Part shown: piece after piece, positions 13,986 through 63,586 of the stretch
How positions within the stretch are numbered: position 1 is the stretch's first letter
Layout of the letters: every line of letters starts with the position of its first letter
DNA from: Mycolicibacterium flavescens
Lineage (GTDB): Bacteria; Actinomycetota; Actinomycetes; Mycobacteriales; Mycobacteriaceae
Assembly: GCA_900637135.1 (NCBI GenBank)
Contig: LR134353.1
Coordinates: 1,488,001 to 1,552,000 of the forward strand
Reading direction: 5' to 3'
DNA length: 64,000 nt
Position numbers and translations under genes: made by a program
The notes under the pieces: model-generated
Seen by the model: the letters and a program-made list of their open reading frames with translations, nothing else
Databases searched by the model: none
Told to the model about the DNA's origin: nothing

Positions 13986-14002
13986 CGGTATTAGCGTTCT
14001 CA
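13986..14002. promoter_or_regulatory. Degenerate copy of the GAGAAT-N3-ATTCTC operator
   Basis: CGGTATT-AGC-GTTCTCA: the right half matches the consensus ATTCTC with one change, while the left half keeps four of seven bases. It lies 60 bases before the SDR start in the SDR/mutase divergent promoter, and is followed by CATTTTACGCAAGT, which recurs near the second copy 109 bases away. Called on similarity to the strong sites elsewhere. Confidence 0.4.
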
Positions 14003-14094
14003 TTTTACGCAAGTGCCATATTCGCTGTGTACCGCGCCTTCGGCACCTTTTACCGCCGGGTCACGCCCTGTCCTCGGTGCACGTTTCCGGCGCG

Positions 14095-14111
14095 CGGTAT
14101 TGGCATTCTCA
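14095..14111. promoter_or_regulatory. Second degenerate operator copy in front of the mutase operon
   Basis: CGGTATT-GGC-ATTCTCA, with a perfect right half-site, 24 bases before the mutase ATG. A TACGTT at 14123-14128 is spaced like a -10 box for a leaderless or near-leaderless mutase transcript, so a bound repressor would cover the promoter. Confidence 0.45.
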
Positions 14112-14135
14112 TTTTTTGCAAGTACGTTATCCGTG

Positions 14136-15713
14136 ATGAGCGAGCCAGTACAGACCCCGTCGGGGCTCCCGCTCGAGCCGGTCTATGGGCCAGCGGACAG
14201 GGTGACGGAGCCGCCTCCGCCCGGCACCTATCCATTCACGCGCGGAAACTTCGCGACGGGCTACCGCGGCAAGACGTGGACGTTTCGCCAGTACTCGGGG
14301 TTCGGTACGCCTGAGGAGTCCAATCGGCGCTACCGCTACCTGCTGGACCAGGGCGGCACCGGGCTGTCGGTGGCGCTGGATCTGCCCACGCAGTGCGGCT
14401 ACGACTCCGACGACCCCGAATACGGCGAGGAGGTGGGCCGCGTCGGTGTCGCGGTCGACACCCTCGCCGACGCGGAGATCCTCTTCGACGGCATTCCGCT
14501 GGACAAGATCAGCACCAGCTTCACGATCAACGGCACGGCGGCCATCCTGCTGGCGTTCTACGTCGCCGCCGCGGAGAAGAAGGGGGTGCCGCGGGCCAAG
14601 CTCACCGGCACCATCCAGAACGACATCCTCAAGGAGTACGCGTCGCGCGGGACCTGGATCTGGCCGCCCGAGCCGTCGCTACGCCTGATCGCCGACACCA
14701 TCGAGTTCTGCGCGGCCGAGGTGCCCAAGTTCAACGCGATCTCGGTGGCCGGGGCGCACTTCCGCGACGCGGGCGCCAACGCGGTGCAGGAGATGGCGTT
14801 CACCCTCGCCGACGGCGTCACGTACTGCGACACCGTCGTCGAGCGCGGGCGCATGACCATCGACCAGTTCGCGCCGCAGATCTCGTTCTTCTTCTACACC
14901 CACGGGGACTTCTTCGAGGAGATCGCCAAGTACCGCGCCGGCCGGCGGCGCTGGGCGACGATCGTGCGCGAGCGCTACGGGGCGTCGTCGGACAAGGCGT
15001 CGATGTTCCGGTTCGGTTGTGTGGCCGGCGGCGCATCGCTGTTCGCACCGCAGGCCCAGAACAACCTCGTTCGCGTCGCGTATGAGGCGATGGCCGCGGT
15101 ACTGGGTGGCGTGCAGTCGATGTTCACCGCGGCGTGGGACGAACCGTTCGCCCTGCCCAGTGAGGAGTCGGCCACGCTGGCATTGCGTACGCAGCAGATC
15201 CTCGCGTATGAGACCGGCGTGACCAAGGTCGCCGATCCGCTCGGCGGGTCGTACTTCGTCGAGGCGCTCACCGACGCGACGGAGGAGAAGATCATCGAGA
15301 TCATGCACGATCTCGAGACCCACGGCGGCATGGTCCGTGCGATCGAGGACGGCTACCTGCAGGGGCTGATCGCCGACGAGGCGTTCAAGATCCACCAGGA
15401 GATCGAGTCCGGTACGCGACCGGTGGTGGGGGTCAACAAGTTCGTCTCCGATGAGCCGCCGCCCGAGATCGCGACCTACGAACTCGACGCCGAGGGCCGC
15501 GACCTGCAACTCAAGCGGCTGGCGAAAGTCAAGGCCGAGCGCGACGCCACCGCGGTCAAGGAGGCGTTGGCGGCGCTGGCGCGTTCGGCGGAAGGCGACG
15601 ACAACCTGATGCACAAGCTGGTCGACTGCGCCAACGCCTACTGCACTGTGGGAGAGATGGTTTCGACGCTCAAGTCGGTGTGGGGCGAGTTCCAGCAGCC
15701 GGTGGTGTTCTGA
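14136..15713 (+). CDS. Coenzyme-B12 acyl-CoA mutase, large (substrate-binding) subunit
   Basis: A 525-residue TIM-barrel subunit of the methylmalonyl-/isobutyryl-/2-hydroxyisobutyryl-CoA mutase family, without the C-terminal B12 domain, which is supplied by the next gene. Aligned without gaps to Propionibacterium MutB (offset 36), substrate-selecting Tyr89 and Arg207 are Tyr53 and Arg171, and His244 is His208. So it carries the carboxylate-binding pair of methylmalonyl-CoA mutase rather than the Phe/Gln or Ile/Gln of the isobutyryl and hydroxyisobutyryl enzymes. Tyr243, however, is Ala207. This suggests a CoA ester with a free carboxylate but a roomier pocket. The start at 14136 follows the family N-terminus. 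TGATG overlap with the small subunit. Confidence 0.9.
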   Translation: MSEPVQTPSGLPLEPVYGPADRVTEPPPPGTYPFTRGNFATGYRGKTWTFRQYSGFGTPEESNRRYRYLLDQGGTGLSVALDLPTQCGYDSDDPEYGEEVGRVGVAVDTLADAEILFDGIPLDKISTSFTINGTAAILLAFYVAAAEKKGVPRAKLTGTIQNDILKEYASRGTWIWPPEPSLRLIADTIEFCAAEVPKFNAISVAGAHFRDAGANAVQEMAFTLADGVTYCDTVVERGRMTIDQFAPQISFFFYTHGDFFEEIAKYRAGRRRWATIVRERYGASSDKASMFRFGCVAGGASLFAPQAQNNLVRVAYEAMAAVLGGVQSMFTAAWDEPFALPSEESATLALRTQQILAYETGVTKVADPLGGSYFVEALTDATEEKIIEIMHDLETHGGMVRAIEDGYLQGLIADEAFKIHQEIESGTRPVVGVNKFVSDEPPPEIATYELDAEGRDLQLKRLAKVKAERDATAVKEALAALARSAEGDDNLMHKLVDCANAYCTVGEMVSTLKSVWGEFQQPVVF

Positions 15714-16129
15714 TGGCAGACTCTTCGACGGCCGGCCCGGTGCGGGTTCTGGTCGCCAAACCCGGGCTGGACGGACACGACCGCGGCGCCAAGATCGTCG
15801 CACGGACGCTGCGCGATGCGGGTTTCGAGGTGATCTACACCGGAATCCGTCAGCGCATCGAAGACATCGTGTCGATCGCTTTGCAGGAAGACGTTGCGCT
15901 GGTGGGACTTTCGATCCTCTCCGGTGCGCACGTGGCGCTGACCACGCGCACGGTGGAGGCCCTGCGCGCGGCCGACGCCGGCGACATCGCGGTCGTCGTC
16001 GGCGGCACCATCCCGCAGGGCGACGTGCCCAAGCTCCTGTCCGCGGGCGCGGCTGCGGTGTTCCCGACGGGGACCTCGCTCGACACCCTGGTCGACGAGG
16101 TGCGCAAGCTGACGATGAGCCACCAGTGA
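15713..16129 (+). CDS. B12-binding small subunit of the acyl-CoA mutase
   Basis: A 138-residue cobalamin-binding protein. It contains the base-off/His-on signature DGHDRG (DxHxxG; the His is the lower cobalt ligand), the SxL motif in GLSILSGAH, and the GG motif in VVVGGTIP. It pairs with the large subunit immediately upstream, the split arrangement typical of isobutyryl- and hydroxyisobutyryl-CoA mutases. The MeaB-like GTPase at 24871 probably loads or protects the cofactor. Confidence 0.93.
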   Translation: MADSSTAGPVRVLVAKPGLDGHDRGAKIVARTLRDAGFEVIYTGIRQRIEDIVSIALQEDVALVGLSILSGAHVALTTRTVEALRAADAGDIAVVVGGTIPQGDVPKLLSAGAAAVFPTGTSLDTLVDEVRKLTMSHQ

Positions 16130-16165
16130 CCTGTTCGGCACTGAATTTCCGGAGGACGAACTGAC

Positions 16166-62751: not shown

Positions 62752-62768
62752 CGAGAACGCGATTCTCG
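62752..62768. promoter_or_regulatory. GAGAAT-type operator 2 of 3 upstream of the P450
   Basis: CGAGAAC-GCG-ATTCTCG, one mismatch between 7-bp arms and extending to GC pairs outside. Centre is 56 bp from operator 1. Confidence 0.75.
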
Positions 62769-62777
62769 CGCCAGAGG

Positions 62778-62794
62778 TGAGAACGGAGTTCTCC
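62778..62794. promoter_or_regulatory. GAGAAT-type operator 3 of 3 upstream of the P450
   Basis: TGAGAAC-GGA-GTTCTCC, with one arm mismatch. Centre is 26 bp from operator 2, and it abuts the stop codon of the TetR gene. Confidence 0.6.
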
Positions 62795-62796
62795 GC

Positions 62797-63513
62797 CTAC
62801 TGGGCGGCAAATCCGTGCGAGACGAAGTCCCAGACCTCGTCGGCGGTGATCGGATGCGTGGTGCCGTCCTCGGCACCGTTGGACTGTGCCACGAACATGA
62901 CCGTCTGCATGGTCATGGCCGCCATCCGCTTCGGGTTGATACCCTCCCGCAGCTGGCCCGCCTCACCGGCCTCTTCCATCAGCTCGGTCAGCAGCGCGAG
63001 CAGCGGCGCGTGTGCGATCTTGACCTCGGCGGGGTGCGAGAGCAGGAGCCGAGGGGCGAAGTCGGTGAACAGCGGGCGCTTAGCCGTCGGGTCCGGACGC
63101 GAGGATTCGAAGAGCAACTGCACGGCGACCTTGAGTCGCTCGATTGGCTCGTCCTCGGTGGTGGTGGCGGCGCGGATCTGGTCTGCAGACCGACTCAGTG
63201 CGTCCTCGAAGAGGGCCAACAGCAGCTCGTGCTTACCGTCGAACTGCAGGTAGAAGCTGCGGAGCGACTGCCGCGAGCGGTCGACGACCTCTTGGACGGT
63301 GAAGTCGGTGCTGCCCTTTTCGATGATGATCGCCTGCGCGGCGTCCAGGAAGCGCTGCACGCGTTGCGCGGCCCGTAACTTCGCGGTTTTGATCGACCGT
63401 TCGACCGCGCGCTGCTTCCAGGCAGGCTCCTCGCTGGGGCTCGTCACCGGCGGCTCAGACGCCGGCCGGGTGGGGAGAACATGAACTGACTGTACCGGAG
63501 AACGTCTCGCCAT
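62797..63513 (-). CDS. TetR family regulator, candidate master repressor of the region
   Basis: A 238-residue TetR protein with an unusually long polar N-terminus (about 45 residues) before the DNA-binding domain, whose helix-turn-helix is around FTVQEVVDRSRQSLRSFY. The ligand domain is large and helical. The ATG at 63513 follows a GAGGACC site; a TTG nine codons upstream is possible. A perfect GAGAAT-type palindrome lies 55 bases before it, and three more follow its stop, so it very likely binds this motif and controls itself, the P450 operon, the acyl-CoA dehydrogenase gene and the more distant sites. Inducer unknown, probably a CoA ester or the substrate. Confidence 0.9.
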   Translation of the reverse strand: MARRSPVQSVHVLPTRPASEPPVTSPSEEPAWKQRAVERSIKTAKLRAAQRVQRFLDAAQAIIIEKGSTDFTVQEVVDRSRQSLRSFYLQFDGKHELLLALFEDALSRSADQIRAATTTEDEPIERLKVAVQLLFESSRPDPTAKRPLFTDFAPRLLLSHPAEVKIAHAPLLALLTELMEEAGEAGQLREGINPKRMAAMTMQTVMFVAQSNGAEDGTTHPITADEVWDFVSHGFAAQ

Positions 63514-63567
63514 TGCGGTCCTCGACCCCCTCGCGGCCAACGTGTCAGAGATTGTAACTTTCTCACG

Positions 63568-63586
63568 ATGAGAATAGTATTCTCAT
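63568..63586. promoter_or_regulatory. Best copy of the GAGAAT-N3-ATTCTC operator (TetR/acyl-CoA dehydrogenase)
   Basis: ATGAGAAT-AGT-ATTCTCAT: 8-bp perfect arms with a 3-bp spacer, 19 bp in all, midway between the TetR start (63513) and the divergent acyl-CoA dehydrogenase start (63636). Its position makes it the autoregulatory site and defines the motif. Confidence 0.85.

Follow-up and report, generated by a model that had tools for sequence, protein, structure and literature searches.

A recurrent palindrome and a candidate TetR-family repressor of a catabolic regulon in Mycolicibacterium flavescens and its relatives

Cholesterol catabolism in mycobacteria is controlled by KstR and KstR2, TetR-family proteins with many palindromic sites before acyl-coenzyme A (acyl-CoA) dehydrogenase, CoA ligase, thiolase and P450 genes. 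FadR and KstR2 respond to CoA-thioester ligands, and FadR-type TetRs of Bacillus and Thermus control beta-oxidation genes. Here we analyse a palindrome, GAGAAT-N3-ATTCTC, together with a TetR-family gene (62797..63447, minus strand) in a 64,000-nucleotide stretch of Mycolicibacterium flavescens, called the window below (positions 1488001-1552000 of contig LR134353.1, here C1; feature coordinates are those of the window unless stated otherwise). We estimate a probability of roughly 85% that this TetR protein binds the recurrent operator and represses catabolic promoters until it is released, presumably by a CoA thioester. The likeness to KstR and KstR2 is that a TetR-family regulator is combined with palindromes before the same kinds of catabolic genes. 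The operator appears to be a different one, and the protein reaches only 22.1 bits against the KstR model NF033703 (cut-off 280), which leaves it outside that family. According to a published study, the KstR2 effector is HIP-CoA (PMC6593523).

The same study describes motif X, a palindrome predicted for the Rv0767c orthologue (G155_05115) of a Mycobacterium that degrades phytosterols; the 14 operons concerned hold P450, short-chain dehydrogenase (SDR) and dehydrogenase genes and include that of the regulator (PMC6593523). Common to both are a predicted TetR regulon, genes of these three kinds and a site before the regulator's own gene. Identity of the two systems was nonetheless rejected. In the genome studied here the locus of Rv0767c layout, a TetR gene at C1:593-597 kb with two P450 genes next to it (L188 6477-7082, in C1:590001-604000), has its own palindrome, TGGACA-GG-TGTCCA, and no GAGAAT-N3-ATTCTC with up to 2 mismatches occurs in the 14 kb around this TetR gene. 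This locus is assigned to Rv0767c by its layout. An enrichment of GAC and GTC at Rv0767c sites, given in PMC10312376, agrees with TGGACA-GG-TGTCCA. The analysis supports an operator unlike that of the nearest published candidate; the initial annotation of the window had supposed a difference from the KstR and KstR2 boxes. Motifs of divergent TetRs are tabulated under M. tuberculosis gene numbers in PMC4482099, and one of these could be the GAGAAT motif; a TAC-N6-GTA motif is described in PMC3388012. Neither the motif strings nor such a regulon were found in the literature searched, subscription papers lying mostly outside that search.

The protein belongs to the TetR family according to its TetR_N domain (PF00440, 31.1 bits, cut-off 24). 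Its best NCBIfam match is the model for ScbR-type autoregulators (NF041196), but it scores only 40.6 bits where the cut-off is 150, and its gene context is different. The best PDB matches by sequence include FadR-type structures 5gpa and 5gp9 (E about 1e-7), which are also found by fold, although identity is about 20% and the model poor. Indeed, the structure model has low confidence (mean pLDDT 73.6); a fold search with it returned 42 matches with E up to 0.001, among them solved KstR2 (4w97) at 22% identity.

A clustered palindrome far above chance

The complete genome (a single contig of 5.4 Mb) contains six exact copies of GAGAAT-N3-ATTCTC, against 0.04 expected from base composition. With one mismatch allowed the count rises to 13 (2.0 expected on the same basis), and the reversed control pattern is absent. 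The palindrome is a genuine motif, far above chance. Eleven of the 13 copies are clustered within about 149 kb (C1:1506497-1655608), starting inside the window: six lie in the window and the other five at 72595, 109025, 124734, 164753 and 167594 on the same scale. The remaining two are found at C1:4701534, near a helicase-like gene, and at C1:3453057, before a gene resembling g019. The regulon extends about 100 kb past the window and is met with throughout the genus, an extent that had been understated.

Copies had initially been placed between genes without exception. According to the gene calls of this analysis, for a 202-kb region of which 7.6% is intergenic, site centres lie between genes for all six exact copies and for four of the five with one mismatch. 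Five copies had also been listed as strong, of which those at 18497, 23641, 31530 and 63570 are indeed exact and that at 62753 has one mismatch. Among five listed as weaker, 62697 (one mismatch), 54346 and 62779 (two each) are recovered, while 14096 has three mismatches and 13986 does not appear even when three are allowed. Copies with at most one mismatch occupy five intergenic regions of the window (18497; 23641; 31530; 62697 with 62753; 63570) instead of the seven counted before.

In the window alone, 18 copies with up to three mismatches compare with a shuffle mean of 10.2, and one of 100 shuffles reaches 18; given this modest excess, weak copies carry little weight. We also aligned 65 sites (11 regional and 54 exact from relatives). 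Since these were picked by the pattern itself, conservation of the core is built in; the edges of the spacer prefer A/G and T/C. The outer C...G position, initially included in the operator, is unconserved (0.01 bit).

The TetR gene as candidate binder

The regulator gene is flanked by its sites. An exact operator (63570..63584) lies between TetR and the acyl-CoA dehydrogenase gene fadE g088 (63636..64000, continuing to 64811, plus strand), its centre 59 base pairs (bp) from the fadE start and 130 bp from the TetR GTG. Just behind TetR, upstream of a P450 gene, the pattern scan gives two operators with one mismatch (62753..62767 and 62697..62711) and a weak copy with two (62779..62793).

Among close loci (the best 80 of 401 TetR relatives, 84-100% identical), all 80 carry an exact upstream site, at -70/-71 relative to the point where the longer frame begins, and in 47 a copy with one mismatch or none lies no more than 300 bp behind TetR. 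Twenty of 23 genomes chosen as unusual have the TetR, as 22 close copies of 63-82% identity. Upstream of these the site is exact in eight cases, has one mismatch in nine and two mismatches in one (the first copy of G022). An order-level search of 298 genomes yields a TetR match in 42: 35 in the same genus, six in two other genera of the family and one distant (35%). In the two other genera each of the six orthologues is preceded by an exact site, at a distance of 135-145 bp from the GTG start, and the gene on the other side of it at all six loci is a fadE like g152, not g088. Neighbours differ within the genus as well. In G180, TetR has a site on either side and lies beside fadE g152 and SDR g049; it is found near g097/g098 in G157 and near g048-g051 in G190. 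That the site follows the TetR gene through changing neighbourhoods is the best sign that TetR is the binder. Paralogues at 57-61% in the other-genera genomes have an exact upstream site in three of four cases (the fourth has a one-mismatch site behind the gene), and none of three paralogues at about 31-33% (L141, L142, L244) has an upstream site at up to 2 mismatches.

Co-occurrence was tallied in 198 genomes of the genus (completeness at least 90%, kinship uncorrected). The motif is present in 166 of them: TetR and motif occur together in 164, TetR only in four, motif only in two and neither in 28. Two of the TetR-only genomes (G078 and G196; the others are G110 and G223) have a one-mismatch site before TetR. 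The reversed pattern appears as a single copy in each of five genomes, and among 24 genomes outside the genus one (G053) has one motif copy and no TetR. With the exact upstream site in 80 of 80 close loci and in six of six orthologues from other genera, and with this co-occurrence, the initial choice of this TetR as the likely regulator is supported. In all likelihood the TetR at 62797-63447 is the binder of the palindrome.

Several observations point the other way. Site 72595 overlaps the called start of g097. G166 has eight sites and G067 one, with no TetR found in either (G166 is 93% complete, in 700 contigs and 7% contaminated). Four of the 22 divergent TetR copies (G110, G085, G026, G223) lack an upstream site at up to 2 mismatches, and three of these four keep the same recognition-helix region. 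In the 30 genomes without TetR, a match to the amidohydrolase g192 remains in only three (G166, 85%; G119, 38%; G096, 47% and with stops); the target gene is mostly lost along with TetR. A palindrome with 2 mismatches precedes korA in G009, another genome that lacks TetR. Finally, the Fisher value for an IclR-family gene beside one of the sites (30593-31366) is as strong as that for TetR (kinship uncorrected); the discordant genomes make the difference.

This IclR protein could be the real binder, with the TetR gene merely one of its targets. Its gene is present in 155 of the 198 genomes, all 155 of them motif-bearing. However, 11 motif-bearing genomes are without IclR and ten of these have TetR; eight of the 11 carry 4-10 sites, all eight with TetR (G155, G157, G167, G172, G175, G177, G181, G190). 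Moreover, the site before TetR persists when the neighbours change, and that before IclR is kept in two of six relatives. The discordant genomes rule against IclR as the binder, which we regard as very unlikely. Several further TetR genes lie in the 150-kb region and one of these might bind the palindrome instead; none is known to keep an upstream site across rearrangements and genera, and blastp finds no close paralogue of the TetR among the region's genes. We consider such a binder very unlikely.

Some further observations concern the regulator in divergent genomes. The four with a siteless TetR (loci L119, L121, L123 and L136) have at most one exact site genome-wide, and the greater part of the regulon of these TetRs has apparently disappeared. 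In six divergent genomes (L129-L132, L134, L135) the one-mismatch site before TetR is accompanied, at a distance of 21 bp, by a second palindrome, GAGAGT-N3-ACTCTC. G091 and G022 have two close TetR copies each (L127 and L140; L128 and L139), one with an exact upstream operator and the other with 1 or 2 mismatches.

The TetR gene product is 100% identical over 238 residues to a protein of Mycolicibacterium novocastrense, and a plasmid collection gave no match to it. Its start is likely the GTG at 63447 (216 amino acids), not that of the longer frame at 63513, because most divergent copies lose similarity upstream of the GTG and two are interrupted by stop codons in that stretch. On the other hand, 37 close proteins share a near-invariant longer N-terminus. 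A short frame of 12 codons, MFSPPGRRLSRR, occupies 63446-63484 on the minus strand, its TGA stop overlapping the TetR GTG. An ATG-started frame ends likewise at the TetR GTG in 79 of 80 loci, with 12 codons (from the outermost ATG) in 40 of these; translational coupling is a possible explanation.

Target genes and other conserved boxes

Conservation of the targets was assessed with 44 of 45 exact sites from six relatives (G022, G029, G034, G020, G006, G013), one G013 site being left out. Sites precede the orthologue of TetR in all six, of fadE g152 in six, of amidohydrolase g192 in five, of the Rieske/amidohydrolase pair g096/g098 in four and of P450 g135 in two; one G022 site (L144) has no known neighbour. 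Of the 64 close loci where g098 was found, 56 keep its site with no more than one mismatch.

Within the window, the exact operator at 18497..18511 stands before a CoA-ligase operon (g045-g048, 18574..22612, plus strand: CoA ligase, two acyl-CoA dehydrogenase proteins and enoyl-CoA hydratase, all below equivalog cut-offs), and all six relatives keep a site before g045 or before g044, its divergent partner. The exact operator at 23641..23655 separates the SDR gene g049 (22839..23603, minus strand, by family profile matches) from the thiolase gene g050 (23678..24823, plus strand, TIGR01930 above cut-off), as in three of six relatives. Between the IclR gene and an mhp-like operon lies the exact operator at 31530..31544 (two of six relatives). 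The first four genes of this operon (31565..36812, plus strand) encode an HsaD-like hydrolase, an MhpA-like hydroxylase, a LigB-type dioxygenase and a KstD-like dehydrogenase. Here MhpA (NF004828) is above its cut-off and LigB matches PF02900, while the HsaD and named KstD models are below cut-off; the KstD-related FAD protein exceeds its NCBIfam cut-off without reaching the named KstD models. The operators behind TetR face the cytochrome P450 gene g086 (61356..62570, minus strand, PF00067), which is followed by the SDR gene g085 (60479..61315, minus strand, by a family profile match). The site before fadE g088 is kept in relatives. The CoA-ligase, thiolase, mhp-like, P450 and FadE genes, all named as targets at the outset, are supported as such. 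A doubtful weak copy with two mismatches (54346..54360) lies between g079 and the acyltransferase gene g080; of 44 loci, 16 have a site with at most two mismatches upstream of g080.

Families among the targets comprise acyl-CoA dehydrogenases, hydratases, thiolases, SDRs, CaiB-type transferases, an LLM oxygenase, amidohydrolases, a Rieske oxygenase and P450s. No family model of the target enzymes names a substrate, and solved relatives of the P450 indicate none.

Two candidate targets were rejected. The first is korA, which encodes a 2-oxoacid:ferredoxin oxidoreductase subunit. An exact site lies 232-250 bp upstream of it in five of 30 chosen genomes (L182, L198, L201, L202, L203) and a one-mismatch site in two (L210, L214); among the six relatives a site precedes it in three, and in G085 the korA site is the only exact one in the genome. 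This genome has none at up to 2 mismatches, and korA was rejected as a core target. The second is the B12-mutase operon, whose mutase domains were recovered. Its supposed weak copies at 13986 and 14096 belong to another conserved box: two copies of the 20-bp GGTATTRGCRTTCTCATTTT, followed by GCAAGT, are found at 13987-14115 before the operon (0.00 expected), 109 bp apart. The same box occurs twice in this intergenic region, 140-157 bp apart, in all three relatives examined (G013, G020, G034), and TetR control of the mutase genes is thus unsupported. The box may be a tandem promoter, read as TTGGCA-N17-TACGTT, or belong to another regulator. A similar sequence, TATTGGCATTCTC, is seen before CoA ligase g191 at 163058 on the window scale.

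Proposed regulation and its meaning

In the mechanism we propose, the TetR protein would bind GAGAAT-N3-ATTCTC as a dimer and repress the catabolic promoters as well as its own; at promoter-proximal sites it would block RNA polymerase, and a CoA-thioester intermediate of the pathway would presumably release it. At eight of the 11 regional sites with at most one mismatch, the distance from the site centre to a gene start is 28-70 bp (ten starts in all), which fits promoter occlusion by a repressor. Alternatively, the TetR may bind but mainly activate, or two TetR paralogues may share the sites. Some genomes have two close TetR copies, and the P450 and g098 sites are 134-223 bp from the gene start (for the P450 gene, three copies at 134-216 bp, one with two mismatches). 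We nevertheless consider both variants unlikely, given the ten short distances, the fact that TetR proteins are mostly repressors and the next paralogue in this genome, which is only 31% identical and has no site. TetR very probably acts as a repressor. The initial proposal of a single TetR repressor holds as far as one regulon with this TetR as its likely regulator is concerned; that one TetR suffices is inferred, and some genomes, as said, have two.

A CoA thioester as ligand is proposed by analogy with FadR and KstR2 (weak matches) and from the target genes, and we give it an even chance. The enzymes suggest breakdown of a cyclic acid: among them are CoA ligases, acyl-CoA dehydrogenases in pairs, hydratases, thiolases, P450s, amidohydrolases and a Rieske oxygenase, besides the ring-opening MhpA/LigB set and the HsaD- and KstD-like proteins that go with it; whether this acid is terpenoid- or steroid-like is about evenly balanced.

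Summarizing, this is a regulon of the KstR/KstR2 kind, whose motif is found in most sampled mycobacteria and whose pathway is apparently undescribed. We lean, with some reserve, towards ranking it with the KstR and KstR2 regulons, as the third with a master role in the catabolism of the Mycobacteriaceae: one TetR repressor and a dozen operators for an undescribed route for polycyclic terpenoid- or steroid-like acids, kept by most Mycobacterium and some species of two further genera and in some wired directly to korA. If true, a 150-kb catabolic region would gain a regulator and an operator together with a list of its genes. The operator would make it possible to identify genes of the pathway in any species and to test candidate substrates by reporter.

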